Below, in pieces: positions 14,701 through 58,327 of a DNA stretch of 64,000 bases. The notes under the pieces are model-generated. The model saw nothing but the letters and a program-made list of their open reading frames with translations, had not been told where the DNA came from and made no database searches. The DNA is from Lophium mytilinum. Taxonomy: Eukaryota > Ascomycota > Dothideomycetes > Mytilinidiales > Mytilinidiaceae. The first letter of the stretch is position 1. Each line of letters opens with the position of its first letter. Position numbers and translations under genes: made by a program. The stretch spans positions 1,193,454 to 1,257,453 of the forward strand of contig MU004196.1 in assembly GCA_010093605.1 (NCBI GenBank). Reading direction: 5' to 3'.

Positions 14701-15257
14701 CAGCGTCAACCTGGTGAAGTCATCCGTCACTGGAATTTTGTACTCAGGCCCTAGCCGAGCGAACTTCAGTACAAGCTGTTCGGCAATATCGAGCATCTCT
14801 GTCTCAAGTTAGCATGCGGTACCGCGATTTAGATCCTCAGACGCACCATCGAACATGCTTAGGACAGAGAGAGGGCCAAAGGCGGGCATGAGAATCCTAT
14901 GGGCTTGGGTCCAGTCTGGGTGTTTTTCCTGTAGAATAGAGCGATTAGCCCAAAGAGAGAAAACCAGTGATCGTCAAGAATTACATCGGGGGCAGTGAAC
15001 AGTCCTTTGGGGCCGCCCGAGCCCAGGGCGGCAAGTCCTCCTCCGGTTGCTTTGCAGAACCTTGTTTCATCGCAGAGTTCCTCGAACAACTCATGGTTTG
15101 CGACGATGATCCGCTCTCGGCCAAGGGTACAGAGCTTGAAGATCGGGCCATACTGGTCTGCGAGTCTTTCTAAGGCACGCGTTGGTACCTCATCGTTAAG
15201 ATCAAACAGATTGCCAACGAAAGGCAGTCCCTTGGGAGAGGGTATCGGTTTGGCCAT
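11712..15257 (-). CDS. CYP505-type self-sufficient cytochrome P450 / CPR fusion (P450foxy-like)
   Basis: Seven exons: 15257-14985, 14928-14847, 14798-14358, 14284-13881, 13831-13258, 13209-12638, 12578-11712 (1070 aa, standard for CYP505). All six introns (48-73 nt) preserve frame. P450 half: I-helix AGHETTSG (about 265), ExxR in RETLRL, heme loop FGTGLRGCIG (402-411, Cys ligand). Reductase half: flavodoxin FMN loop YGSNTGTCQALA (about 505), FAD motif RLRHYSISSSP (about 845), NADPH region FAAGTGLAPFRGF. Known members hydroxylate fatty acids at subterminal positions with no separate reductase. It is divergent from a Zn2Cys6 regulator at 15908, a likely local regulator. Confidence 0.95.
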
Positions 15258-15907
15258 GGTAGGGCCTTATCGGCTACTACCAGGAGACAAAAAATAGAGA
15301 AAGGGAGAGCAGCGCTGAGATATTTAGAAGCAAATCCAGAAATATAAAATTGGAAAGAATAAAAGACTGGGAGATTGGGAGAAAGGAGGAAGGGAAGAAT
15401 GCTGGGGACAACGCAGCCAAGCTCGGGAACTGAGCATCTCGATCCTTAAATGCATACGCTCTCGCCTGATACGCAAAGCCATGATGTGTATATCGAACGT
15501 CGCTCTCTTCGCCAAATGCGGCCATCATTGCGATGTGATTACCTGGCGCGTCGCCCCCGGAGGCCGGAAAACCCCAGCACTAGGTATTACTGCGGGGGGT
15601 TTCAGCCACTCAGCCCTACGAACTGGTTGCCGCATCCATCAACCATGCGCCACCAGGCGAAGTTCGTCAAGGCATTGAGTTCAGCTTCAGCAGCTCGCGG
15701 AGTAGAGAGCGAAGGGCACAGCCACGTCGACTTCGCGGCGGCTCACAAGAGTGGGGTTTGGAAAGCGACGCTTGACGCGTGCATGGCGTGCTGACTTAGA
15801 AATACAGTCGGCAGCTCATCATCTCCTACATAGAACAACCTCTCCATCACCATAAGTATAGCCGTTGCTCCTCATTACAGCATCCTCATTTTGGAGACAT
15901 CGGAGCG
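15258..15907. promoter_or_regulatory. Shared divergent promoter, CYP505 / Zn2Cys6 regulator
   Basis: 650 bp lie between the two start codons. An A-rich/purine run at 15290-15390 lies next to the CYP505 start. I could not pick out a convincing inverted CGG pair as the regulator's site. Confidence 0.55.
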
Positions 15908-42318: not shown

Positions 42319-42951
42319 TTAGAACCAATCGAACCAAATAATGGGAAATACTTCGAGACTTTCACTGTACCCAGACCTACAATACTCCATCACTTTCCGG
42401 TCCGTCTCCGTCAATACTCCCTTGCCAAGCCTTTTCAGCCCGTTATCAGCCTCCAGGCACCTCAAGATAGCAGATAAAGAAGCTTCCGCACTCGTTTCAT
42501 CCCTTCGAACCTCAAGCGTCTTCGACTCTTCCTGAATCACAAGCACCGCTTTCAGCATATAAGCTAGCAAACGTGCTTCCCGAATTCCTTCAATGAAGGC
42601 GCGCACACGCCCGAAGAATGAACTCGGTCTTTCCACCTGCTGTTTCCTCTCGTTTTGCAGCCGCAGGTCGATTTCTTTCGCCAAAACCGGCACGCGGCGA
42701 ATGAAATAAGTCAACGGCGAATTTTCTTTTGGTCTCTGAGGAGCTTGGTTCGGGTGCTTGGTTTTCAGGGCCGGCGTCTTGTTTATCGTAGGGTGGCGAT
42801 CCATTGGGACTACTAAGCCCTGTGTCACCCCGCGTCTATTGGCTTGGCTTCGTAGCGAGGTGTGAAAAGCTCGATTGAGAAGTGGATAAGACGCAAGAGG
42901 GACAAATGCGTTAACCGATGGGAAACCCGGTGCTGGCAACCGGAGAGGCAT
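42319..42951 (-). CDS. Small hypothetical protein with mitochondrial-type presequence (duplicate 1)
   Basis: 210 aa from the ATG at 42951; an in-frame ATG at 42999 gives 226 aa. The N-terminus MPLRLPAPGFPSV...LLNRAFHTSLRSQANRRG is basic, lacks acids and has an RAFHTS motif like fungal matrix-protease cleavage sites. The C-half is helical (FIEGIREARLLAYMLKAVLV) and ends with RLGKGVLTETDRKVMEY, which resembles the C-terminus of the next gene (GMGRGVLTGKERESLL). Function unknown. Confidence 0.6.
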   Translation of the reverse strand: MPLRLPAPGFPSVNAFVPLASYPLLNRAFHTSLRSQANRRGVTQGLVVPMDRHPTINKTPALKTKHPNQAPQRPKENSPLTYFIRRVPVLAKEIDLRLQNERKQQVERPSSFFGRVRAFIEGIREARLLAYMLKAVLVIQEESKTLEVRRDETSAEASLSAILRCLEADNGLKRLGKGVLTETDRKVMEYCRSGYSESLEVFPIIWFDWF

Positions 42952-43101
42952 GATGAAGAGCTGCCCGAATCCTACAGAAACCGAGCTGGGCGGACGCACT
43001 CTTAAGGTACCTCTGCCGAACGTTGCACAACTTCAACTATGGTGGCACAGCATCTAGGCACCAGCATTCCTCAACCCGTCCCCAGATCCCCATCTCCTCT
43101 C

Positions 43102-43623
43102 TCAAAGACACAATAAACTCTCCCTCTCTTTCCCCGTCAAAACCCCCCTCCCCATCCCCCTCAACGCCTCGTCCACCAGCAAAAACCTCGTCGCTGCCGC
43201 CACCGTCGCCAGCTCCTCCAACTCGACCCAGAAGCCCCGCTCTGCTCCCATCATCTCTCTCACCGCGCCGCGTAGACATCCTAGTAACTCCTCCTCTGCT
43301 TCCCGCCCATTCGTCTGCGCGTCGGCCTGTCGCGCGTCTATTCTCTGTCGGATGGCGGGGAGACGGCTGTCTAGGTAATCTTGCGCTAGCACCGATCGGG
43401 CGGGTGGCTGCCAGTTGGGGCTCCGTACGCCTAGGGGTTCTGGAGAAGCGCGCAGTGTCATGTGGCTTTTTAGTAAGGGGAGTGGCTGGGGCGGCGAGCT
43501 GGTATGGCTGGGTGGGACTACGGTTGGGGGCGGTTGGGTTGCGCGGGGGAAGGAGGCGGAGAAAGAGCGGTCGTGGGGTGGTTTGGGGAGTTGAGGGAGG
43601 GAGGGACGCCGGGGGTGGGGCAT
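43102..43623 (-). CDS. Small hypothetical protein with mitochondrial-type presequence (duplicate 2)
   Basis: 173 aa from MPHPRRPSLPQL at 43623; an upstream in-frame ATG at 43710 is possible. Like its neighbour it has a basic start and an RSFSAS motif, then a proline-rich part and a helical C-terminus ending GMGRGVLTGKERESLLCL. The pair lies in tandem, same strand, 150 bp apart. I infer divergent duplication; similarity is confined to the two ends. A rival longer frame on the same strand at 43037-43738 is low-complexity. Confidence 0.5.
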   Translation of the reverse strand: MPHPRRPSLPQLPKPPHDRSFSASFPRATQPPPTVVPPSHTSSPPQPLPLLKSHMTLRASPEPLGVRSPNWQPPARSVLAQDYLDSRLPAIRQRIDARQADAQTNGREAEEELLGCLRGAVREMMGAERGFWVELEELATVAAATRFLLVDEALRGMGRGVLTGKERESLLCL

Positions 43624-43974
43624 TGCGGTTGAGTGGTGCTGTTGGAGAGGTTTGATGGTATTCGCGAGGGTGCAAGTGGCGGGCTGATGTCGGTTGGATA
43701 CTTCGCGCACTGGTTGTAAAACGGATGGGCATCCACATTTAGCGGGACGGTGGGAAATGCTTATTAGAGAATGAGTTGGAGGCTGTTGGTAGGTTGTTGT
43801 TCATGTTGTTGTTGTTGTGGGGATCGCCATAATTGGAGGTGGTTGGGGTGGCTGGGGGTGCGACCACCAGCGTGATATCTCACCACATCGCCCCCCAATT
43901 GAATTCCATGAGCTCTGGTTCGTGTGAAGTTGATGTACTCAAGAACCGGAACCTTGGTATTAGAGCCCAGAACT

Positions 43975-44170: not shown

Positions 44171-44671
44171 TTGAGGTTACGGAACGAGGTCTCATACTAT
44201 CACAGGTTGGTCAAAAAGCACTGGTAGACCTGACAGAGTCATTACTAGGTCTGACTAAATTACTAGCTGAACAGTTGCTAGAGGACAGTACTAGGGCACA
44301 GGTTTGGCCAGCTATCTCTTTTATTTGATACTGATTCATGATAAGGTTTCACAGAACCTCGAACAGGGCAAGCCCGCTAATGGCCAGCTTATGGAATTCC
44401 TCTAATTCAAGCTCTTAGGGAATGAAACAAATTAAGCGCGTCGAGGCACCCTCAACGGTGGTGAGTAAGGGTGTATTGGAATTTGTCAAGGTACTGTAAG
44501 TAGACCTGGCCACGTTATGTACCGATACTATTAGGTCTCCGTAACAAGGAGAGAAGAAAAACTCTAAACCTACCCTTCGACGTTGTATACTTCTTAGCTA
44601 GAAGCCTATTTAGCGAACCTCTATTTCGTATGCAGTTTTTGCTCGTTAGCATCGTTATTTGAAAGATTTAA

Positions 44672-44775
44672 GGCCAATGTCTATTTTCAAGCAGTGTAGA
44701 TTAGACTGCCTCTTGACTAAATAACAGCTTAGCAGCTAGGCTGCCCCCTGCAGTGGTATCGAGCGAAAGTTAGAA
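44672..44775 (+). repeat. Direct repeat flanking family-A gene 1, left copy
   Basis: GCCAATGTCTA, then TTAGACTGCCTC, GCAGCTAGGCTGCC and GTGGTATCGAGCGA, matches the copy at 45697-45800 in order, about 1025 bp away, roughly 70-75 percent alike by eye. The two copies bracket the gene at 44770-45610. Confidence 0.75.
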
Positions 44776-45610
44776 CCAAGATGGCCTAATGAAACCGGGT
44801 AATATACTCTTAAACACCGTCACCAAATCCTCCACACTTTCGCCCGTTACGCGCCCTACTAGACTCGCCGTTGTCTTATAACCCGCTACAACGGGCCCTA
44901 TTACGTGCACGACCGACGTCTCCCGCAGCTTAAACGCATGATCGCCCCGTACTACTAGCGAATGATAGGGCGTTTCATTGACATAGCTCCTATCCCCCTC
45001 CGCCCTAATTCCCATATACTGCTCGCGTACCTCCCGTGATTTCATGCCGATGCCCCGCCCTGTGTGCGAAGTTAGCGGACACGCGATCATGTGCTGCGGA
45101 AAAACTGCCAGAACCACCATATAGCGCATTTTAGTGGAAATGGGGCCAATGGTGCTTTCAGTGCGTGCTTCGCTGGTGGTTGAGACGCTGTGGTCGCCGA
45201 GCGGCGCGAAGTGCGGCGTGCAGAATATCGAGCCGGGGGCTAGCTCTGCGATCTCTTCGCGGGTCAGAGTCCTTGAGGGAGCTTTGGAGTTCGCGGTGGC
45301 GAGGGTGAGGCTGGATAGGCTAGGGGTGGAGCAGGCGGAAACAGAGGGACATAGCGCCAGAGCTGGCGGTGCTGCTTTGGCCGCCCATGCGGAGATTCTT
45401 GATTCGGGGGTTGAGCGAGGGGGGAAGTGAGGCAGCATTGCTGGTTGGTCTTGGGGGAAGGGGGTAGGCTAATGTTTGGGAACCTCCCTGCTGAGGGAGA
45501 GATTGTGCACCATTTCCTGAGCCTGAGGTTACCAGCTTCGACTTCGGATAGGGTTGGTAACGAGAGCTAGAAGAGGCTCTACTTACTTGTGAGCCTGATT
45601 GTTCGACCAT
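44770..45610 (-). CDS. Family A, copy 1: DUF6590-like domain protein
   Basis: Two exons, 45610-45533 and 45468-44770 (258 aa, matching copies 2 and 4 at 263 and 283). After a Ser/Pro-rich disordered start, the domain runs FCTPHFAPLGD, ARTESTIGPISTKMRYMVVL, FPQHMIACPLTSHTGRGIG, EVREQYMGIR, NETPYHSLVVR, HVIGPVVAGYK, VGRVTGESVEDLVTVFKSI. The order of a beta strand before H-x-x-x-x-PL-x-(S/T)H-x-GRG and a C-terminal G-x-(V/L)-x-x-x-S helix is that of fungal DUF6590, whose role is unknown. An upstream GTAAGT donor could splice to the same acceptor in frame (241 aa). Head-to-head with the family-B gene at 46314. Confidence 0.72.
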
Positions 45611-45696
45611 TTTATTGATCTGTACAGTGTCAGGTGACCCTGGGCACACTTCTTCGCCACTGCTTCCAGTACTCTCAACGAATTTCGAGAATCAAC

Positions 45697-45800
45697 AGCC
45701 GATGTCTACTTACGAGCTGTGCAAATTAGACTGCCTCCCGACTGACTACCTACTGAGTAGCTAGACTACCTCTTACCGTGGCACCGAGCGAGCAAGATTT
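45697..45800 (+). repeat. Direct repeat flanking family-A gene 1, right copy
   Basis: GCCGATGTCTA, AATTAGACTGCCTCCCGACT, GTAGCTAGACTACC and GTGGCACCGAGCGAG pair with the left copy at 44672-44775 in the same orientation. Confidence 0.75.
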
Positions 45801-46313
45801 GGGCCAGACGACGATAGATCCCTAGGCAGGCCTATAAAATAGTACTGTACTAGTGATCTGGTAAGGTAGGTTGTTTCTGTGATAGAGGTTAAATGTCAGA
45901 AGGAGTTTTGTTTACTGACTTCTGATACAGTAGGCTCGAGTTATATTTGAATTTTACCGTCCTTAAACAGTTCCAGGAATAGCTTAGAGACCGAGGAGAA
46001 TCGTAGAGAGGAGGTGTTTACGGATATTCGATAGATAACGAGCTGATAGATTTAAAGTATGCTGAGCGGTAACCGCAATATGAAGACAAAGCCATTGTCT
46101 CTTAACGGCCATAAAAACGTCGGTAAAACTTCAGCTATGGATGTAGAAAGCTTCACAAGGTCTTTTTCGACCAACGAAGTCCTTTGTTTATGCTGAGACA
46201 CCCTTGAACAAAGAGATCTTCCTTATGCTTGATAAAGCTCCCCAACCTCATATACTTAGTCTGCAGCATATTCTACACAGATTTGATTTGCTCAATTTGA
46301 TACACTGAAAATC

Positions 46314-47453
46314 ATGTCGACTCTCGGTTCGAGATGCAGTGAAGTCGTCAAGCAAGGTCTCGAGTCACTTAGAAGCCTTTTTGCAGAAGAAGATGCTCTC
46401 CCCGTCGCGCAACACGACGCCCATCCGCGAAGTGAAACCTCTAGCCCGATAGAGACCATCTCTTCGCCACAAGCAGCGCAAGAGCAAGATACTCCGCAGT
46501 CAAGTCCAAAGCTTTCAGTACCTCACAACGGGAGATGGATCTTTGCTGTAGAAGAAGAAACCGATTACACATTCGGACCCGCGCGGATGATCGAGGCATT
46601 TGATCACGGCCACTCTTGCGCCGCCATGCTTCTATCATTCGGGCTCTCACAAAAAATAAAAGCGGCCCTGAATGATCGCCGATCATTGCAAGATTGGCAT
46701 ATCCAAGTCCAGCTACAACGAGAGCATATCGCGGCTCGCGATGGCGAACTGAACGCGAGCTTCTTCCGACAAGACATTCAACTTGAAAAGCTGGAGATCG
46801 CGGCTCGGAAGATGGGCGACGACGTTTCAGCTGAACTCCAACAGAAGATGAAAGAGCTTCAGGCTTCAAGGAGAGATATTACAGTGCAGCGAGCTAAGCT
46901 GGAGGAGGAGGAGAAGCGAATAGACGACCGTTGGCAAATGGCCCTCTCTCAACAACGAGTGCTTCGTGAAGAGGTAGACGTCATACTCGAAGACGTTTTC
47001 GTGAACTGTCAGCTACTGCAAGAGCCCCAGGATCCTTCATTTGGGCAGCACAATGCATATCCGCCAGTTGCACGGCGATCATGCGTCCAAGGTGACGATG
47101 ACAGTGATTACTTGGCTCCGGGGGACATCACCTATCCAGAAGATACCGGAAAAGCAGTTCTCTATCCAGAGAATACTAGAGAGGCAGCTCGCTATCCAGA
47201 GAATACTAGAGAGACCGAAGATAGTCCAACTGCACACCTGGAGCGCGACGGCGCTAACCCGTCTCGCAAGCGGATACACGATTGGCTGGATAACTCTGGT
47301 GGCGAAAGCATAAGTCCGCCTCCACCATCGGAGCCTGAGATGGATCATTGGTCGGTTGATTCAGACAAGCGGTTTGAAAGTGTAAGTGTGCTTGCTGAAG
47401 AGCCTCTTAGAAAGAAAATCGACTGGTGGAGACAGAAGACTCGTCAAGACTAG
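46314..47453 (+). CDS. Family B, copy 1: coiled-coil protein, shortened middle
   Basis: Single exon, 379 aa. Shared family marks: acidic start to DYTFGPARM, then LSFGLSQKI, a long charged coiled coil (about 120-220) closing with REEVDVILEDVFVNCQLL, and the C-terminal block EPEMDHWSVDSDKRFESVSV then RKKIDWWRQKT. It lacks the 100-residue middle block of copies 2 and 3 (NLEH...RAQR...NRP...EHDLLHLQ); in its place is a short tandem peptide repeat of the YPENTRE type. No signal peptide or membrane segment. Function unknown. Confidence 0.78.
   Translation: MSTLGSRCSEVVKQGLESLRSLFAEEDALPVAQHDAHPRSETSSPIETISSPQAAQEQDTPQSSPKLSVPHNGRWIFAVEEETDYTFGPARMIEAFDHGHSCAAMLLSFGLSQKIKAALNDRRSLQDWHIQVQLQREHIAARDGELNASFFRQDIQLEKLEIAARKMGDDVSAELQQKMKELQASRRDITVQRAKLEEEEKRIDDRWQMALSQQRVLREEVDVILEDVFVNCQLLQEPQDPSFGQHNAYPPVARRSCVQGDDDSDYLAPGDITYPEDTGKAVLYPENTREAARYPENTRETEDSPTAHLERDGANPSRKRIHDWLDNSGGESISPPPPSEPEMDHWSVDSDKRFESVSVLAEEPLRKKIDWWRQKTRQD
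47131..47218 (+). repeat. 30-bp minisatellite inside family-B gene 1 (three copies)
   Basis: TATCCAGA(A/G)(A/G)ATAC begins at 47133, 47163 and 47193, an exact 30-bp period. The encoded 10-residue unit is YPE(D/N)T(G/R)(K/E)A plus two. Period divisible by 3 keeps the gene open. Confidence 0.9.
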
Positions 47454-48194
47454 GTAATCGGAATTGACCAAAGTCGTTTCTCTCCTTTCTCTTGACGGTC
47501 TTTCTTCACATGTGTTCGACGTGATCTTTGCATTGAAGCGTACAAGTTAGTCCTGAATACAAAAGTTCACCAACCTTCTATTCTGACACATTACCAGTTC
47601 CAAATGCTCGTGATTTTGTCGTGACTTGCCAAATTGCCAGTGCTCTTTCGATTCCGAACACAGAACTTGAGATGGATATCTCTCTGAAAAGGGAAGTCCA
47701 TGGATATCAAGTCTAATCCAGACCCAATGTCCACCTCTGGATTCCGTCAATCCACTCTTTAGGCTCTTTGAATCTTTCCCTCGCTAGTCTGTGAAAGTAT
47801 AGTCGGTTAGTAGTGAAGGGTGTACGTTAAAATTAGAGCCGCGTTCTTGGTTTACTGTCTTACTTTTCAAGATGAAGTGTTGTGCCTAGGACCAACAGCT
47901 TCGGTGGCAAATGCGCCGACCCCGCTCTACCCTAGGAACGACCTGACCTGAGCAGCTAGCTTCATAACCCTATGTACCACCACCTTTCGCAATTGACGTC
48001 AACACCCACGGCAAGATTGCTGTCGGCGTGGGATGATGCGCACTGCCCGCTTCCGGCCGCGGACCGCTTCATCTGACAACGCCCAGTAGTTGAACTATTT
48101 GAATCCCCGATTACATCTCGACGACACCAATCCAAACCCGCTTGAAATTCAATAGCTGTGAAATCGATCTTCACAACTAAAAAAGGGTACCAAA
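47454..48194. other. Intergenic, nothing recognised
   Basis: 740 bp between family-B copy 1 and the GST gene; no supported coding signal. Confidence 0.4.
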
Positions 48195-49077
48195 ATGTCG
48201 CAGATCATTTTATTCGACCTACCCTCCAAAGATCGCTGTGCCTGCTGGTCTTACAACCCTTGGAAAAGTATATCTCGTGATTTCCTTTCTCATACAAAGT
48301 ATCAGACTAACACCAATTTCTAGCTCGACTCACTCTCAATTTCAAGGGTGTAGACTATACGACGGAATGGCTCGAGTATCCCGACATAGCAGCTAGGCTG
48401 AAGTCTTTGTCAGTGTACTATTTCTCTCATCAAAAGCTATTGCGTCTAACACGTTATGTCCAGCGACATCCCTCCAAACAAGAAAGGAGCAGAGTACACT
48501 ATCCCTGCAGTGCGTCTCGCAGATGGAACCTATCTGATGGACTCCTTCCCGATCGCGGAAGCTCTCGAGAAGGCCTACCCAGCCCCGTCCCTACATCTTG
48601 ACTGGGAGAAATTGCCAGAGGTGATCGAGAAAATAAACCAACTCTCGGAAGCCACCACGCCGTGGTGGAAGGCGAAGGTTCCACGCAATCTCCTCTTGCC
48701 ACGGTCAGCAGAGTACTTTTCTCGGACGAGGGGGCAGAGGTACAATATGCCTCTGGAACAGCTCGAGAAGGAGCTTGCCACCGAGGAGAAGTGGGTGGAG
48801 GTGAAGCCGATTTCTGGAGATTTGTGTGCTCTTTTGAAGGCGAGTGGAGGCCCTTACTATAAAGGAACTACTCGTAAGTTTCAAACTTTATGATCCAAAG
48901 CGGCATGGAGGCTTATGTAGAGATTTAGCATCTTATGCGGATTTTGTGACGGTGGGATTTCTGCAGTGCGTGAAGAGAGCTGATGAGAGTGTTTTTGAGA
49001 AGCTTGTGGGTCTGGAACAAGAGCTGAAAAAGCTTTATGATGCGTGCGGAAAGTGGTTAGAGAGGGATGACCATTAA
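48195..49077 (+). CDS. Glutathione S-transferase-like protein
   Basis: Four exons: 48195-48267, 48324-48408, 48464-48873, 48929-49077 (238 aa). Every junction is phase-consistent (WK-TRLTLNFKG, KS-FDIPPNKKG, TT-PSYADFVTVGF). The thioredoxin-like N-domain has IILFDLPSKDRCACWSYNPW, GAEYTIPAVRLADGTYLMDS (cis-Pro and the ES/DS glutathione contact). The helical C-domain has the N-capping-like PSYADFVTVGFLQ. It resembles fungal GSTs of the UstS type with a C-A-C-W active-site region. It sits between two A/B cassettes and is not itself duplicated here. Confidence 0.85.
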
Positions 49078-49406
49078 GAACAACAGGAAACGGTAGGAAG
49101 ACTAGATTCATCGAACTCTGAGGTCATGATGTTTGTGAGCCTTGCGTACTTTGCAAGGGAGATCATCGTTTATCTAGCATTCTGAACACGAAGTATCAGT
49201 TTCATTTTCAAACGCGCCTAGTCATAGCCCTTGGCTCCTTGTCACTTTCTGCCTCTAATGGTCTCGAAATTTTGCAACCGTGCTATCATTCTATGTTCTA
49301 TCAGTATGGTAGTTCTGTGATATCATTCTTGAAATAGAAAGTCTACACAAACGCACTCAACCTTACTTTTTCGTTACCTTCGTCCATTCATCGCTAATTA
49401 TGTCAT
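49078..49406. other. Intergenic between convergent GST and family-A copy 2
   Basis: 329 bp, nothing recognised. Confidence 0.4.
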
Positions 49407-50198
49407 CTAGTCAAGAGATTCTTCGATAGCCTTCTCCATAAGATTCTTGAAGGTCTCTGCCAACAGCTCACAGCTCTCCACAGTAAGCTGACCTGAGATA
49501 TCATTGACCTTACTATAGCTTACCGCAACGAGCGCCATGAGATGGACATTGCTCGTACTTTTTAGCGTAAAATTGTTCCACGCGTAACGCACTTCCAGCG
49601 GCTCATACGGCGTTTGATTATCGCCGCCGCCCGATGCGTCGTTCTGCATCTTCATCGCCATGTAGTTAGCGCGTACGTCAGCAGGCTTGTGCCCAATTCC
49701 ACGGCCAGAGTGGCTGTAAAGAGGTAAGGCCAGCAAATGGTCCGGAAATTTCGCGATTACAATCATGTATCGATTCTTCGTAGATGCAGGACCTATGGTG
49801 GACTCTGTACGAGCTGAGTGGCCGACAGGAATGGTTGGGTCACCGAGAGGCTCGAAATGTGGTGCGTTTATGATATCCCCAGTCGTGCTTTTGGCATAGC
49901 TCACGATGACAGGGCCGGTGGAGCGCCCAAATCCTGTGTTGCGTGATGTGGTAGAAGCGTTAGAGCCTAATGTCATCCTCTGCATTCCGGTGCTGATGTT
50001 CGAAGGGTTGGCGGTGGTCCTCCATTGTCCGCCCATTGGATTATTGCTGACATGTGATGCGTTAGAAGCAGCGTAGGGAGCGCGTCTAGCATTGCTTGCA
50101 GCACTTACTTGGGATGTATTCCAGTTTGAACGAGCAGCCCCTGCTTGACTTGATCGCCAGACGCCGCCATTGGCAGTGGGAGCATTTTTTAAAACCAT
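49407..50198 (-). CDS. Family A, copy 2: DUF6590-like domain protein
   Basis: Single exon, 263 aa. The N-terminal third is Asn/Ser/Ala-rich and disordered with the SQVSAAS motif. The domain follows: INAPHFEPLGDPTIPVG, ARTESTIGPASTKNRYMIVI, FPDHLLALPLYSHSGRGIG, ADVRANYMAMK, QTPYEPLEVRYAW, NVHLMALVAVSYSK, SGQLTVESCELLAETFKNLM. SQVS is encoded by CCCAAGTAAGT, a consensus 5' splice site, and a CTAAC...CAG acceptor lies 62 nt on. Splicing there would fit only a start at a second ATG in another frame; I kept the unspliced frame because it aligns with copy 4. Head-to-head with family B copy 2. Confidence 0.75.
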   Translation of the reverse strand: MVLKNAPTANGGVWRSSQAGAARSNWNTSQVSAASNARRAPYAASNASHVSNNPMGGQWRTTANPSNISTGMQRMTLGSNASTTSRNTGFGRSTGPVIVSYAKSTTGDIINAPHFEPLGDPTIPVGHSARTESTIGPASTKNRYMIVIAKFPDHLLALPLYSHSGRGIGHKPADVRANYMAMKMQNDASGGGDNQTPYEPLEVRYAWNNFTLKSTSNVHLMALVAVSYSKVNDISGQLTVESCELLAETFKNLMEKAIEESLD

Positions 50199-50687
50199 TC
50201 TGAGTTTGATCGCGCGGATGGTGTGACTGACGGTAGGAATTTGGTGTATCTTGACTGTAGCCAGATCGCGAGGCTACCTTGTAACTCGAGATTTGATGAT
50301 GTTAACCTTTTGAGTGATTTGAAGAAATACCTGCAAAGGTGATGACGAAATACCAAAAGGCGAGTAAGAATGGTTGGTAGATCGAAAGGACCTTGATGAG
50401 AGTGAGCATATCAATCATCTTTAAGGTCGAACGGGACCGGAACAATAACATTGTATTATTTCCTGCGAGGGTTAAAGTGGGAAGGATGAACAAGACTTTG
50501 TATAGGTGATGTCGAATTTTCTGATCATTCTTTGTTCGATTACGCATCGTTGACAAACAAAGCTACGTTGCTGAAGCCGAGAAAAGAGAATAAAGACTCG
50601 CAGGCCCTCATCGACCACAAAATAAAATTGCTGTCCCTCAGAGAACCTACTTACTTGAAACCACAGAATTAGGTTGAAAATTGCGCC
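50199..50687. promoter_or_regulatory. Shared divergent promoter, A/B cassette 2
   Basis: 489 bp between the starts of family-A copy 2 and family-B copy 2. By eye it has no clear similarity to the matching spacer of cassette 3 (54144-54535), so the cassettes are old or their promoters diverged quickly. Confidence 0.6.
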
Positions 50688-52049
50688 ATGGCTGTCACCG
50701 ACTTCGTTAAGCAAACATTGCAATTTGTTGCGGGCAGATATCATGCCCTCACGCGCATGGCAGACGAGTCGACCACATCGCTGGCAATAAGAGCGGAAGA
50801 AGACGCGATTCCTGAGGAGACTGCTCCACTGACGGTAGAAGAGGCCATGTTTCCACCAGCTGTTGGTTGCTTTTTTGGGGAAGAGGAGGAGAACGACTAC
50901 ACTTCTGGCCCTGCAAAGATGGTAGTAGTGAACGATGGGGCTAACGCGTCTGCTGCTCTCCTTCTTTCATACGATCTTTCAAAGAAGATCCAAGACGCTG
51001 TAATGGGCGATCGCGTACTCCAAGAGCTAGGGCTTCAAATCGATCAACAACGCAGCAATATCAATGCTCGCGAACAGGATCTACGCTACACTATTCTACG
51101 AATTGATCGTAAAATCGAGAGGCTCGAACTCAAGTTCAAGAAAGCTAGTAAGCTCACAGATGAACAGGTTCGCGAAACGGAGGAGCATAGAGCGGCCATC
51201 AGCGACCTAGAAAAGCAACGGGCAGACCTCGAGCTAGAAGATCATGATCTTCGGGAACGTTGGGAAGCAGCTCAGCAACGACAGCAGATGCTTCAAAGAG
51301 AAGTGAACGTCATCATGGAAGACGTCTTTGTCAAATGCCAACTTTTGCCACCACAAGAGTCATTCGATGGCTCTCAGATGGAGCCATTCGATGGCGAGGG
51401 TTCAGATCAGTTTCCTGATGCCCCGGAAGGACTCGAATTCGAGAACCACCTTGGCGAAATTCCTCAGGCCCAGAATGTGACGGATGACTATCAAGATGTC
51501 GCTATGCAGGCGAGCACAAATCTGGAGCACCGCAAAGGTGATTTGATCCGGGCCCAGCGGAGTTTCGACACTTACCAAACCGGGTATGATGCTTCCCTTC
51601 AACAATATCTCTCCACTCAAATTAACCGCCCAATCATTGACTCACAAACAGAACATGATCTACTCCATCTACAACGTGGGCGCACCCTTACGCGGCGCCT
51701 AATTGATGCCGAAGAGGCTCTCGAGGCCGCGGAGATAGCTGCCAAAGCCGCGAGATGCCCTACCAATTACTTCCAAGAGTCTCATTTCGGGGACGGCACT
51801 GATGATGGGTATCGCGAGAGTCAAGAGGCCGCAATAGCTGCCCAGGTTGACCGTAAGAAAATCGAGGCGTGGCTGGCGAAGGAACCCGCAAACGGAGATA
51901 TGAGGAGGCCGAGTGAGGCTAAAACGGAGCCGGAGGTTGATGAGTGGAGCGTGGATGAGGAGAAGCCGTTTGATAGTGTAAGTGTCCTGGCGGAGGGGTC
52001 GCGGAGGAAGAAGATTGATAAGTGGCGGCGCCGGACCGGTGCATATTGA
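50688..52049 (+). CDS. Family B, copy 2: coiled-coil protein
   Basis: Single exon, 453 aa. Order of blocks: EENDYTSGPAKMVVV; SYDLSKKIQDAVMGDRVLQ; coiled coil about 110-225; REVNVIMEDVFVKCQLLPP; NLEHRKGDLIRAQRSFDTYQ, QYLSTQINRP, EHDLLHLQRGRTLTRRLIDA; FQESHFGDGTDDGYRESQE; VDRKKIEAWL; C-terminal EPEVDEWSVDEEKPFDSVSV with RRKKIDKWRRRTG. It is an acidic, soluble, helical protein with no membrane segment or recognised enzyme motif. The terminal 36 residues are the most conserved part of the family, so probably a binding module. Confidence 0.8.
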   Translation: MAVTDFVKQTLQFVAGRYHALTRMADESTTSLAIRAEEDAIPEETAPLTVEEAMFPPAVGCFFGEEEENDYTSGPAKMVVVNDGANASAALLLSYDLSKKIQDAVMGDRVLQELGLQIDQQRSNINAREQDLRYTILRIDRKIERLELKFKKASKLTDEQVRETEEHRAAISDLEKQRADLELEDHDLRERWEAAQQRQQMLQREVNVIMEDVFVKCQLLPPQESFDGSQMEPFDGEGSDQFPDAPEGLEFENHLGEIPQAQNVTDDYQDVAMQASTNLEHRKGDLIRAQRSFDTYQTGYDASLQQYLSTQINRPIIDSQTEHDLLHLQRGRTLTRRLIDAEEALEAAEIAAKAARCPTNYFQESHFGDGTDDGYRESQEAAIAAQVDRKKIEAWLAKEPANGDMRRPSEAKTEPEVDEWSVDEEKPFDSVSVLAEGSRRKKIDKWRRRTGAY

Positions 52050-52796
52050 CTTTTTTCTTCTAGCTCTTCTTTGCTTTGCAATCAAGCGAGCATTCTCGCC
52101 ACTTTATAGAGAGCCTGTTTTCATAGCTTGACAGAATTTCATTACCGCAGTACCATTATCAGACTTTTCCTGCCTGTTGAGCTTAAAGAAGAAGGTTTAA
52201 ATCTAAACCTAAGACCCCCTTGAGTATTCGTTGAAGAAGTAGTCAGCAATTCTTACATATTAAACAAAACTTCTCCCCGAGTCCTAGTGCGAATTCAGAT
52301 CCGCCCTCAAACGCTTATTATTCTTTGTGAAATGACTGATCCGTTAGTGACACCTTGAAAGCCCTTTACTCAAGAAAATATCGTATCTATGAAGAAGCAA
52401 CCTATTACGTTAATGCTGGACAGGGAATTTACTAGGTACGGCTTCAAGTGATGGCGCAATCTGCCCTTCATAATGCAATTCTAGGCGCTCTTCCGATGAG
52501 GGATGCTAAACTGTGTGTTACCGAACTTCTAGACCATTGGCTGAGCTTCGTAGCAGAATTTATCGTCACGTATCAAGTTCATTTGGAGCGAGAGAGTATG
52601 GGGGAGGGATTGCATTGTACTTACTAACATTGTGTCATTGGGGTTTGTCACCTTGTCAAGTCTTCAATAGAGTTGCTGGATAGATGACCACGTTGGCGGC
52701 CATCCGAGAAAACCATCGGGAAAGCGCATGCACTGCGATCTCGATCATTCTTTAGTCTTTCTAGTTGCTGGCTCGATATCATCCCGGCTAGAAGAC
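52050..52796. other. Intergenic between convergent family-B copy 2 and family-A copy 3
   Basis: 747 bp, nothing recognised beyond short frames. Confidence 0.4.
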
Positions 52797-53288
52797 TTAT
52801 TTAGCAGATTTCGCAATGAGATCCTGAAGGGTCTTTAGCATAGCTTTACGACTCTGGACAGTGAGCTTACCAGCCACACAATTCGCCTTCCCGTAGCTGA
52901 TCACACACGGCGCCATCAGGTGCACATTATATGTGCTCCTGAACGGTCCATATCTGATGTCTAGCGGTGGGTATGGAGTGTGATTATCACACTCCTCTAT
53001 TGGGGCTGTGTCGAGCTTCAGTGACATGAGCTCTGAATGCACCTCTTCAGGCTTATGCCCGATACCGCGACCGCTGTGAGTGTAGAGAGGGATAACGATC
53101 ATGTGTTGCAGTAGCTTGATAAGCACAATCAGATACCGCATTTTCGTTGATACTGCTCCGACGGTGCTCTCAGAACGGGCGGCACTGCCGAGGGGAACGC
53201 TCATATCGGCGAGGGGCGCGACGTGAGGTACGTTGATGATTGTTAGTAGCTGTACAGGGCATACGTAACCAGACCTACCCTTGCTCAT
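52797..53288 (-). CDS. Family A, copy 3: short DUF6590-like protein without the disordered start
   Basis: 163 aa covering only the domain: VPHVAPLADMSVPLG, ARSESTVGAVSTKMRYLIVL, LQHMIVIPLYTHSGRGIGHK, EEVHSELMSLK, HTPYPPLDIRYG, NVHLMAPCVISYGK, AGKLTVQSRKAMLKTLQDL. Its ATG follows the stop of copy 4 by only 3 nt on the same strand, so it may lack its own promoter. It may be a decaying tandem duplicate, or the second half of a double-domain gene joined by an intron I could not define (a TGTACAG acceptor lies within its first codons). Confidence 0.6.
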   Translation of the reverse strand: MSKGRSGYVCPVQLLTIINVPHVAPLADMSVPLGSAARSESTVGAVSTKMRYLIVLIKLLQHMIVIPLYTHSGRGIGHKPEEVHSELMSLKLDTAPIEECDNHTPYPPLDIRYGPFRSTYNVHLMAPCVISYGKANCVAGKLTVQSRKAMLKTLQDLIAKSAK

Positions 53289-53291
53289 GCT

Positions 53292-54143
53292 TCAAGCATC
53301 CTCAAGCCCCCTTGTCATAAGCTGCTTGAACGTCTGAGTAATCCCGACAATGCTCCGCGCCCCAATCTGTCCAACCACTGCTTTCACACTCTTGTAGTTG
53401 ATGACCACCGGCGCTATCACGTGGGCGTTAGTTGAATCCTTCAGTCTAAACTTGGAGGAGTCCGCGTATCTCACCTCCAGCGCTGGATGTGGCGTCTCGT
53501 TAGTATGATCCTCTTCTTTGACGTCATGTGCCCTCAATGCCATATACTCTGCCCTAATATGTGCTGGCTTGAACCCGATACCGCGTCCAGTGTGTGAGAA
53601 GAGCGGACATGCGATCATGTGTTGAGGAAATTTAGCTAGCACAATCATGTAGCGGTACTTTGTGGAGAGAGGACCAATCGTACTTTCAGTTCGACTTGGA
53701 TCGCCAACGGGCACGTTAGGGTCGGCTAAGGATGCGGCGTGTGGTGCGCAGACGATGTCTCCGCGTTCGACGTCGTTGTATGTGAGAGGGACAAGAGCGC
53801 CGGGCAGGCTAATGTTGCCGGAGGTTGAGAAAGCTGAGGCGCGGGAATTAGTGCTCAGTTGTGACTGGCCAGTGCCAGAGGCATTGGCCCTCCATTGAGG
53901 GGTGCTTTGGCCAGGAGCATTAGAAGGTATGTTTTGGGGACCGGCAGTTGTCCGCCATGCTCCGTTCGGCCTCGATGCGTTTGTGCTCGCAGCAGTAGTG
54001 CCTGCGCGAGGCATTTGGTTGCCGTATATCGATTGTCGCGAGCTGGAGGCTGCGCTTACCTGGGAATTGGCGTAGAGATTTGAACCGGCTCTCGAGGCTG
54101 GTCCTAGAGCGTGACCGGCTGGCAAGTTGGCTCCCCTCGGCAT
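53292..54143 (-). CDS. Family A, copy 4: DUF6590-like domain protein
   Basis: Single exon, 283 aa. A Ser/Ala/Asn-rich disordered start (with NSQVSAASSSR) precedes the domain: VCAPHAASLADPNVPVG, SRTESTIGPLSTKYRYMIVL, FPQHMIACPLFSHTGRGIG, AHIRAEYMALR, NETPHPALEVRYAD, NAHVIAPVVINYK, GQIGARSIVGITQTFKQLM. It is head-to-head with family-B copy 3 (393 bp between starts) and tail-to-head with copy 3 of its own family. Soluble; role unknown. Confidence 0.75.
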   Translation of the reverse strand: MPRGANLPAGHALGPASRAGSNLYANSQVSAASSSRQSIYGNQMPRAGTTAASTNASRPNGAWRTTAGPQNIPSNAPGQSTPQWRANASGTGQSQLSTNSRASAFSTSGNISLPGALVPLTYNDVERGDIVCAPHAASLADPNVPVGDPSRTESTIGPLSTKYRYMIVLAKFPQHMIACPLFSHTGRGIGFKPAHIRAEYMALRAHDVKEEDHTNETPHPALEVRYADSSKFRLKDSTNAHVIAPVVINYKSVKAVVGQIGARSIVGITQTFKQLMTRGLEDA

Positions 54144-54535
54144 CGTGCTTGATCAGAAATTTGATTGAATATCTTTGGTGGAAGGATATGCTGAATGGTA
54201 TGGTCCGATACAAGTTTGGATGAAGCAATTGCAGCGATATTCTGATATCTGGGGGCAGTGTTTCTGAGGGTAACATGAAAAGCTCGTCTGTAATAAGAAG
54301 AACGGAAACAAGCATTGTAAGGCCTACCAAGAAAGAAGAGAAAACAATGTTGCAACACGTCAGAGATCAAATTAATCAATGTTCTTTCAAAAAGGGTATT
54401 AACTTCTTTGTTGATGCTGACACTTCCTCCATAAAGAACGTTGTGTAGAACACATCAATGATGATAAGCCCGCGATTCTTCAATAAATGTCCGAACTAAC
54501 AGTCCTCTCTCTGCAAACTCCACTTACACACGAAC
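54144..54535. promoter_or_regulatory. Shared divergent promoter, A/B cassette 3
   Basis: 392 bp between family-A copy 4 and family-B copy 3. AT-rich, no recognised operator. Confidence 0.6.
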
Positions 54536-55951
54536 ATGAATCTGACAAAGAAGCCAAATCTTGGTATGTTGGATTTTAGTTACCTCTGGCAAAATAGCGT
54601 CGATGGTCTTAAGACCCTCTGGACCCGCAAGCCTACGTTTGAGGTCGAAGACAGATCCTCGCAAACGACAAGTGCAACGACAAGCTCGGCGGATGAACCG
54701 ATGCAGGATGTAAGCATTGCTGGGAATGATATTGAAGAAGGACCGAGCACACCGCCCGATGTCGACTGGGTCTTCGCCGGAGAAACGGAAGACGATTACA
54801 CTGCCGGACCAGCAAAAATGGTTGAAGCCAGTGATGGAACCAAGGCCTGTGCTGCAGTCGCGCTCTCTTTCGACCTGTCAAAGAAGATCCAGGATTCTCT
54901 GATGGGTAGGCGTATGCTCCAACAGCTGAGTTTCGAGATCGAGCAACAGCGCGATGAAATAGCGGCCGAAGAGCAGAAGCTGACGATTTTCATCCTGAGA
55001 CAAGATCGCAAGGTTGAGACAATCGAGATCGAGGTGGAAGAAGCCGGCGGCGAGCCTACAGCTCAGCAACAGGACAAGATGCAAGAGCACCGGGCCGCTA
55101 TTAGAGAGACCGAGAAGCAACGTGCGATGCTGAAGGAGAACGACGAGTTACTCGTGCAGCGATGGGAAGGCGCTAGGCAACAGCAAGAGATGCTGCAGAA
55201 TGAGGTCAACGTCATTCTTGAAGATGTCTTCGTGACGTGCAATCTTTTGCCGCCAGTGATGTACAATGAGCCTTCCTTGGAGCAGCATGAAGGATTCTAC
55301 GATGAGGAAGAACAACCCTCCTTCGATGATGCGAACGTGTTCGAGGCTCCTACGCTTGGTAATACGACGGTCGCTGGTCAGAACGTTCTTCGAGTAGGCG
55401 ATAATGCCCAGAACGCTGCCATTCAAGCAGGCACAAACCTCGAACATAGCCGTGGCGACCTGCTTCGGGCCCAGCGCAACTTCGATGCCTATCAATGCGG
55501 GTACAACCAAGACCTCCAAGCCTACCTCTCCTCACAAGTCAACCGTCCTTACGATGATGTAAAGCTAGAGCATGATCTGCTACATCTCCAAAAAGGCCGA
55601 CGTCTCACGGGAGAGCTCATACAAGCCGAGAAGCGATTTGAAGACGCCGAGATCGAAGCCAAAGCAGCCGGCGTCTTTCCAGGCTATTACCAGGAGTCCA
55701 ACTTCGCCGATTGCCCAGATGACGGATATCGCGAGGGCCAAGAACTCGAGATCGCAGCGCGTGTAGACCGCAAGCGGATCGAGGAATGGTTAGAGAATGC
55801 TGAAGGCGATGGCATGAGTCCGCCGCCGGAGCCGGAGATGGATCAGTGGTCCGTTGACTCGGATAAGCCGTTTGATAGCATCAGCGTGCTTGCGGAAGGC
55901 CCTAACCGAAAGCAGATCGATCGGTGGCGGCAGGAGACTGGCCATTGTTGA
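54536..55951 (+). CDS. Family B, copy 3: coiled-coil protein
   Basis: Single exon, 471 aa, the longest copy. Blocks in order: ETEDDYTAGPAKMVEA; SFDLSKKIQDSLMGRRMLQQ; coiled coil about 130-240; NEVNVILEDVFVTCNLLPP; NLEHSRGDLLRAQRNFDAYQ, AYLSSQVNRP, EHDLLHLQKGRRLTGELIQA; YQESNFADCPDDGYREGQE; VDRKRIEEWLENAEGDG; EPEMDQWSVDSDKPFDSISV with RKQIDRWRQETG. Closely parallel to copy 2 along its full length. Confidence 0.8.
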   Translation: MNLTKKPNLGMLDFSYLWQNSVDGLKTLWTRKPTFEVEDRSSQTTSATTSSADEPMQDVSIAGNDIEEGPSTPPDVDWVFAGETEDDYTAGPAKMVEASDGTKACAAVALSFDLSKKIQDSLMGRRMLQQLSFEIEQQRDEIAAEEQKLTIFILRQDRKVETIEIEVEEAGGEPTAQQQDKMQEHRAAIRETEKQRAMLKENDELLVQRWEGARQQQEMLQNEVNVILEDVFVTCNLLPPVMYNEPSLEQHEGFYDEEEQPSFDDANVFEAPTLGNTTVAGQNVLRVGDNAQNAAIQAGTNLEHSRGDLLRAQRNFDAYQCGYNQDLQAYLSSQVNRPYDDVKLEHDLLHLQKGRRLTGELIQAEKRFEDAEIEAKAAGVFPGYYQESNFADCPDDGYREGQELEIAARVDRKRIEEWLENAEGDGMSPPPEPEMDQWSVDSDKPFDSISVLAEGPNRKQIDRWRQETGHC

Positions 55952-56281: not shown

Positions 56282-58327
56282 TCAAACAAGAACAATATCC
56301 TCTGACACTAGCTGGCCGGATTTCCAGACCTCAATGATCTCGCCGCTCATCATATCACGGACATAGCACTCGCCCACCAGTTGGTATTGGCTACTAGCTC
56401 CGTGGTATTCATAGTCCTGAAAAGCCGTGCGCAGGACAAATGGAGTTTCACCACCTAGCAATATGGCGACACGATCGCCAACTTCCAGCGCTTCTGGTCC
56501 TAATCCCATGTATCCTTCTTCTGTAATGAACAAGCGACGGCGGTGGCAGAACGCCAGTACGGTATTGAACATTCTAATGAATGAATCCGTAGAGAATTTC
56601 GCAGTATGAATCTCTCTCCAAATTTCATCAAACGAGAGAGCGGGATCGTGTTGTCGAGTCAGACTACAGAAGAAGTTGCACTTCGTTTCAAATTCCGTAT
56701 CCATAACCGGTAAGTGCCTCGTAGTAGAAACGTTTGCCGTCATCACTCGAACGATTACGTTTTCTAGAGATTCATGGTCGTCATGAGTTTAGACGCTACG
56801 TATGGACGATAGGAAGTCTCGGATTGCTGCGAACAACTGAACCACACCAGAATCGTGTTCGACGTCTCTGTCCATGAACTGACTGCGCATCAATACTTGC
56901 GATACTATAACTCCATGCAGCCTGAGACTCGTATTATCAGGGCCGGGAAGCAATCTGAATGCTTCATCGCCAGAAGCACCATAGAATTTTCTCTGTTTTT
57001 CGGATGACGAATTTATCGGTTCGAAATAAGGATCTCCAGGCCATGAACGAACCCAAGTAGATACACTCCTCCGAGAGAGCGCTAATCCATGATTGACGAG
57101 TCCTAAAAATACTAAATCTCGCTTGATCTCTATGAATTGCTGAATTGTAGCTCGGAAAGCGTGTAGTGGATCAATCGAGTAGTCTGGCTCAATGTTTAGC
57201 TCTGGAAACAAGTCTAATATGCTGTATACCCGGTCGATGGGAAGTGCGCATTTGAACACGAAGTCTGAGGTGAAATAGTTCCAGATGTCTCTGTGGCTCT
57301 TGGTTGTATGGATCACATAGGCGGCATGCAGGCGTTGCATAGTCCTCGATCTATTTCCAAGATGCAACATACCGTATTTCAAGGCTGCAGTGACAAGTTC
57401 CCGACGGCAGAGCCATGACGCAGCTGCCCCCACTATATCCCAAGGAATCTCCAGTTCACCGAGCAATACAAGTGCTTTAGTAGCCAAGACTACCTCTTGA
57501 ATCACCCAGATTCTCTCGAACCACACTTTATCAAAGAAGTTCAGAAGGGCGACCCACCGCCTATCGATGTAAGGGGGGTATCCCCATGGCGCTTCACTTG
57601 GATCATCCAACCTCGGATATGGATTATCGCTGAAATTAGGGTCCGCTTGTTCCTCTAAAGCTGCTGAAAGAATTGGCAACGCTTGCAACTCATTGCTAAC
57701 GATCTCGCCGAGCCAAATGAGTACCGTCTGCGCCCTTTTGTAAATTGAACCCATCATCTTTACTTGGTGCGACTTTTCCTCGTTGTTTTTCTGATCGATA
57801 CACACAGCGTCGATCCAAAATATGCGCTCGGTGTTGATCCTGCCGTGGGTCCACCGGTCTCTTTTCTGGCATATTGGATAGCGAGTAATCATTTCATCTA
57901 TCTCGTGGGATGTTTCTTGCTCGGCTTGGGGTGTCTCTTCCTCGGCCTCTCGCGAGGACATTTCCCCTCGCGATCGATATCGCCGCCACATCTTTGCAAT
58001 GGGACGTGAGCCTTTCGCAAGACTTCTTCGTAGAATGGAGCGTTCTTTGATAGGAGCATCGGGTAGTTGGGGTGACGGATTCAAAAAACGAAGACCTCGG
58101 AGTGCATCGAAGAGGTTGACACCAACGAAGACCTCGTGCCCGTTCAAGTTGATTGATTTTTTAGGTTCTGGGGCACCCCAAACGTAGGATAGAGCCTCGT
58201 ACTCTGGCGCTGAATCGAAAGGAAAGACTTTGAGCTCGCCGACAATGTCGTCCTGGTCAGCTCCGGCATAAAGATAAAGCAATCGAAACGAGCCCTTCGG
58301 CAAGGGGGTTTGGTAGAACCCGGCCAT
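56282..58327 (-). CDS. HET-domain (heterokaryon incompatibility-type) protein
   Basis: Two frames, 58327-56800 and 56763-56282, fit one gene of 669 aa if a 36-nt intron (GTAGCG...CTCTAG) removes the stop between them; 36 nt is unusually short, so two separate frames or a broken gene remain possible. HET motifs: YEALSYVWGAPEPKKSI, ERIFWIDAVCIDQKNNEEKS, QVKMMGSIYKRAQTVLIWLG, FFDKVWFERIWVIQEV. The distal frame has the usual C-terminal module RRLFITEEGYMGLGP, VGDRVAILLGG, PFVLR, YQLVGECYVRDMMSGE. HET proteins act in fungal self/non-self recognition; partner specificity cannot be read from sequence. Confidence 0.85.

Follow-up and report, generated by a model that had tools for sequence, protein, structure and literature searches.

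A 64,000-nucleotide window of the 43.18 Mb Lophium mytilinum genome, taken from contig MU004196.1 (C16 below), carries three copies of a head-to-head gene pair in which A, a DUF6590-related gene on the minus strand, is separated by a short spacer from B, a gene for a coiled-coil-like protein on the plus strand. Judged by their sequences, A and B, both constrained at the protein level, are an old two-gene module whose members were duplicated together, because every full-length B found has an A partner, the trees of the two families agree, the spacers hold no clear common motif, and no third gene family repeats alongside them. From the number of occurrences and the time depth, we infer that selection holds A and B together. 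The original prediction, made from the window alone, described the three pairs as a retained two-component unit; two further clusters on a second contig (C10), the full pairing, and the concordant between-cluster trees strengthen that description.

The genome was searched with seven A and B proteins as queries, and copy counts are lower bounds. These searches located A and B in three clusters only, namely the window cluster and two on C10 (Table 1). All seven full-length B genes have an A directly upstream on the opposite strand. This A is intact in six cases and decayed in the seventh (beside B7), where it was found by a profile built without that sequence (E 4.6e-4). Six of the ten intact A genes are paired with a divergent B, and four are unpaired. 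A truncated B lacks the C-terminal motif of the family, and the stretch separating it from B5 yielded no A. Spacers on C10 measure 827, 665, and 612 bp, lengths that are approximate because gene starts there are open reading frame (ORF) starts, some of them non-ATG.

Identity between clusters is about 15–34% for A and 21–34% for B. Across six paralog comparisons, the proportion of differences is 0.70–0.82 at synonymous sites (pS) and 0.32–0.44 at nonsynonymous sites (pN), and an attempt at the ratio of nonsynonymous to synonymous rates (dN/dS) found dS saturated in two comparisons and above 2 in four. The topology of the A and B gene trees had been named beforehand as one of the points on which the pairing could fail. 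Maximum-likelihood trees of 10 A and 7 B sequences agree between clusters: in both, the C16 pairs come together, followed by pair p6 and then by p5 with the p8 group. Support for the between-cluster splits is 89–99 in A and 92–100 in B, and the order inside C16 is poorly resolved (62–84). Although pairs p5 and p6 adjoin each other in one cluster, neither tree makes them closest relatives. The identity matrices of A and B over six pairs correlate at 0.83, a value that 2 of 720 relabelings reach, one of the two being the true labelling; this labelling is also the best of the 12 relabelings that keep clusters intact, among which the spread is small (0.83 to 0.64).

The window spacers, described earlier as short (392 to 703 bp) and no longer alike, do differ in length and share no clear motif. 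A search with 6–10-base words over six of the seven pairs (the decayed pair left out) gave counts close to those expected by chance, although slightly more 6-base words were present in all six (4 versus 1.3 expected) and slightly more 8-base words in three (9 versus 4.9). No third gene family repeats beside the clusters when window ORFs of at least 50 amino acids (aa) are compared with about 74 kb of C10; besides A and B, this comparison matched ORFs antisense to B in two cases. A candidate third component, a weak match of 45 aa between a window ORF at 15174–15344 and an ankyrin ORF (E 2.7e-4), 29 kb from the cluster, was rejected as a shared component.

These observations bear on passive linkage, in which a segment with both genes was duplicated and the proteins need not cooperate. 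Tandem clustering within each locus, where A adjoins B anyway, fits such a history, as do the four unpaired A copies. However, every full-length B retains a divergent A despite synonymous sites near or at saturation and between-cluster identity as low as 15–34%, and no other neighbours are seen to be co-duplicated. Separation of A from B was possible, since the extra A genes indicate that single-gene duplication occurs. Passive linkage is regarded as somewhat unlikely, though a serious competitor.

Paralogy within each family, claimed from motifs in the original prediction, extends far past chance: A2 and A4 share 41% identity over 260 aa (E 3e-64), B2 and B3 53% over 408 aa (E 1e-133), and B1 and B3 two main blocks (43% over 184 aa and 61% over 64 aa). 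The ordered motifs themselves (e.g., RTESTIGP in A and ILEDVFV in B) are present in the alignments with variants, namely RSESTVGA and THSGRGIG in A3, IMEDVFV in B2, and WSVDSDKRFES in B1. The assignment of A to a DUF6590-like family is only partly carried by the Pfam cut-off for DUF6590 (PF20233; 27 bits, whole-protein score), which A1 and A2 exceed and A4 and A3 do not reach. Among the five of six intact C10 copies scanned (all but L045), A6 scores 22.4 and A5 13.5 bits, and three give no match. The copies with low scores or no match were placed with A1 and A2 by alignment and profile.

Canonical DUF6590 copies in the same genome have the Arg, Thr/Ser, and R-G loop of A as well. In contrast, the residue after Ser/Thr is His in nine of ten A proteins and Tyr in the seven canonical genes. 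On these sequence characters, A is a divergent branch of DUF6590. Within 1.5 kb to the left and right of the seven canonical genes (ten matches, on C13, C2, C5, and C7) there is no B; four of these genes form a separate cluster inside 20 kb on C13 (1157282–1176693; L001, L002, L004, L005, and L008), each likewise with no B within 1.5 kb. No paper in the literature searched mentions DUF6590 or PF20233, no recorded function was found for either DUF6590 or the B family, and a literature search for the L. mytilinum genome returned no paper.

Family B had not been recognised as any known family, and indeed no window B fits any Pfam family (best E 0.026). When 24 B-family proteins were compared with Pfam, 18 weak matches appeared (best E 0.0028), none of them in more than a single member. 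A PDB sequence search returned no relatives for A, nor for one canonical DUF6590 piece; with B it gave 28 entries, the majority of them coiled-coil proteins (best E 0.017). The middle region of B is charged and weakly matches coiled-coil proteins. Its C-terminus bears the motif D/E-x-W/F ... S/D/E-S-I/V/L-S/G ... R-x-R/K/Q-I-D in 28 of 28 full-length sequences, 24 by pattern and 4 by eye with one change (the truncated B excluded). Antitoxin tails bind a groove of their partner, and by analogy the acidic–aromatic tail and basic end of B would suit partner-groove binding.

Two other candidate features fared poorly. A membrane-binding N-terminal helix in B was rejected, since over 27 sequences (P0007 excluded) its mean z is 0.54 and that of internal stretches 0.50. 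A prion-like motif common to A and B is not supported, with five of six A–B local alignments within shuffled scores. The exception is pair p8, where the N-terminal parts of A8 (L026 4204–5484) and B8 (L026 2380–3591) align with a score of 62 versus a shuffled maximum of 50; this match is of low complexity and is absent from the other pairs.

A low-confidence AlphaFold model of A (A2; mean predicted local distance difference test score 43.7) suggests a MazF/CcdB-like fold, in that bacterial MazF-type and CcdB toxins make up all of the 50 matches listed in its structure search; the true fold could also be one outside that list. An Arg and a Ser/Thr, both invariant in A (10/10 each), fall at the positions of the MazF catalytic pair by strand order only. 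The favoured, though tentative, reading is that A and B act as a complex in which A would be a MazF/CcdB-fold effector and B its cognate scaffold or inhibitor. The DUF6590-type domain of A, behind a low-complexity N-terminus, would be held inactive by the coiled-coil-like B with its conserved C-terminal motif. A lost, changed, or foreign partner would free A, and freed A, perhaps a ribonuclease using the invariant Arg and Ser/Thr, could lead to growth arrest or death, possibly via RNA. A bolder and unlikely extension is that filamentous fungi carry a toxin-antitoxin-like module in the nucleus, in several copies, in which DUF6590 proteins would be eukaryotic MazF/CcdB-fold effectors set head-to-head with their own B inhibitors, the B motif would block the active groove, and cognate pairs would diversify for self/non-self recognition or selfish inheritance.

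No PemK/MazF sequence profile match up to E 1 is present in the nine of ten A proteins that were scanned, and hhalign comparison of A with E. coli MazF and ChpB gives probabilities of 0.3–0.4%. As this comparison with two members of the MazF family was negative, the MazF-like fold is a lead rather than a result, and by sequence A is not classed as a MazF/PemK family member. Protein searches also found a relative of A in Mytilinidion resinicola and homologs of B in Glonium stellatum, Xylographa, and further sources, the Xylographa being Lecanoromycetes. No M. resinicola B and no Glonium or Xylographa A is among the matches listed, which argues mildly against obligate pairing. The same B search also missed B1 and four full-length C10 B genes of Lophium; thus, it cannot decide pairing across species. 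Viral contigs searched for B yielded 57 pattern matches and no relatives.

HET-domain genes lie beside two of the three clusters, at a distance of 0.8 kb in the window and about 3 kb at one of the C10 clusters. They fit a self/non-self role, and A and B might work with such a neighbour as an allorecognition (heterokaryon incompatibility) locus. Known fungal incompatibility does use adjacent gene pairs, as described for het-S/NWD2 (PMC3321046) and het-B Bh/Bp (PMC10890737). However, at least 152 HET matches occur in 43 Mb (150 of 274 candidates scored), so the proximity is only mildly unusual; by a hand estimate made after the fact, two clusters in three would lie this close to a HET gene in 2–5% of cases. 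For the third cluster, the HET matches listed include none closer than about 75 kb, and the two neighbouring HET genes show no mutual match at E 1e-3. An allorecognition locus of this kind is judged distinctly unlikely.

No more probable is a reversal of roles, in which B does the harm or the signalling and A restrains it, such that an orphan A is tolerated and an orphan B is not. The asymmetry of the counts favours it, as four of ten intact A genes lack a divergent B and none of the seven full-length B genes lacks an upstream A. Nevertheless, the numbers are small, B7 is intact despite its decayed A, and the fold lead marks A as the effector. Least probable is a housekeeping or regulatory pair (e.g., an RNA- or protein-binding A with a non-catalytic SH3-like barrel on a coiled-coil scaffold B), which accords with purifying selection and with B homologs in six named Xylographa species, one each among the matches listed, as for an ordinary conserved gene, but not with the increase in copies in Lophium, the decay and truncation of some of them, and strong paralog divergence.

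The seven ORFs named in the original prediction are all present at their places and on their strands, forming three divergent pairs plus the extra copy A3. One gene model needs qualification: A1 is a single ORF from 44770 to 45438, and its end at 45610 holds only with an intron. The only model found joins a 24-base first exon across a 118-base GT-AG intron to give 240 aa. The string SQVSAAS, common to A N-termini and encoded over GTAAGT or GTAAGC, is probably the start of an intron rather than protein, because it is missing from P0024 and P0025, two annotated relatives. P0025, from M. resinicola, is 77% identical to A2, which is annotated as BU16DRAFT_621783 of L. mytilinum. A3 starts 3 bases past the A4 stop and may be a separate gene or a further part of A4, forming one two-domain gene via an unseen intron.

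Table 1. Genes and spacers of the A–B clusters and the adjacent HET-domain gene (window coordinates unless labelled C10)
Feature	Position	Strand	Details
A1, DUF6590-related gene	44770..45610	-	Exon 2 45468-44770, exon 1 45610-45587; ORF, PF20233 32.6 bits, inferred intron
Divergent spacer, pair 1	45611..46313		703 bp
B1, 379 aa	46314..47453	+	Lacks most of the later block common to B2 and B3; C-terminal motif kept
A2, 263 aa	49407..50198	-	ORF, PF20233 30.0 bits; gene-model N-terminus uncertain
Divergent spacer, pair 2	50199..50687		489 bp
B2, 453 aa	50688..52049	+	ORF, paralog alignment, C-terminal motif
A3, extra A copy, 163 aa	52797..53288	-	Domain only; PF20233 16.7 bits, under cut-off
A4, 283 aa	53292..54143	-	ORF, alignment to A2; PF20233 19.9 bits, under cut-off
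Divergent spacer, pair 3	54144..54535		392 bp
B3, 471 aa	54536..55951	+	ORF, alignments to B1 and B2, C-terminal motif
HET-domain gene	56789..58327	-	PF06985, E 2.9e-29; outside the repeated unit, possible functional neighbour
Truncated B	C10 650429-651190	-	Cluster C10-650
B5	C10 652134-653384	-	Cluster C10-650
A5	C10 654212-655087	+	Cluster C10-650; partner of B5
B6	C10 656784-658274	-	Cluster C10-650
A6	C10 658940-659761	+	Cluster C10-650; partner of B6
A gene	C10 261985-262545	+	Cluster C10-262
B7	C10 264374-265801	-	Cluster C10-262
Decayed A	C10 ~266.9-267.4 kb	+	Cluster C10-262; partner of B7, several in-frame stops
B8	C10 268379-269590	-	Cluster C10-262
A8	C10 270203-271483	+	Cluster C10-262; partner of B8
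A gene	C10 272608-273651		Cluster C10-262
A gene	C10 275139-276407		Cluster C10-262

A dispersed repeat of about 100 bases lies on both sides of A1 (44673–44766 and 45698–45791, 74% mutual identity). It has at least 43 matches genome-wide, the first copy included (40 of 155 candidates scored), some of them as close pairs. Indices resembling those of repeat-induced point mutation occur beside A1 (44500–45000 and 45500–46000) and near the decayed A on C10 (L026 500–1000), with TA/AT of 1.69, 1.62, and 1.93 and (CA+TG)/(AC+GT) of 0.69, 0.84, and 0.66, respectively. Two neighbouring minus-strand ORFs at 42319–42999 and 43102–43710 have similar C-terminal strings (GKGVLT and GRGVLT) and are possibly a diverged tandem pair.

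That DUF6590 and B travel together gives each a partner and yields a testable hypothesis for two families for which no recorded function was found. If the MazF-like fold is true, fungal genomes, in which self/non-self genes are already plentiful, would hold a domain shaped like growth-arrest toxins of bacteria together with its own controller. Should the fold lead fail, the three clusters, in which the unit has stayed divergent although synonymous sites are near saturation, would still offer a clean case for studying how the members of a protein pair remain matched.

Among known systems, MazF/PemK and CcdB would resemble A in fold, if its low-confidence model is right, and in the Arg and Ser/Thr, placed by strand order at corresponding strand ends; they also share the arrangement as two adjacent genes. 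A differs in showing no sequence-level relation to them and in its long low-complexity N-terminus. Type II toxin-antitoxin systems likewise consist of two adjacent genes kept together, as for all seven full-length B genes here (one with a decayed A). However, a co-directional operon is expected of them, and all seven pairs here are divergent. MazE and CcdA antitoxins are small, whereas B is a coiled-coil-like protein of 379–496 aa. A 2008 survey reports that no eukaryotic sequence satisfied all of its toxin criteria (PMC2446400).

Closer in layout is het-S/NWD2 of Podospora anserina, an adjacent gene pair that is conserved between species and divergently transcribed in P. anserina (PMC3321046); it differs in that the A and B proteins scanned show no HET-S or STAND match. 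The het-B locus of the same fungus is likewise composed of two adjacent, fast-diverging genes that act together, encoding the HET-lectin protein Bh and the PII-like protein Bp (PMC10890737). No A or B matches the Bh or Bp families in Pfam, and the proteins scanned give no match to the HET domain (PF06985). These known fungal pairs of similar layout are thus made of other families than A and B.

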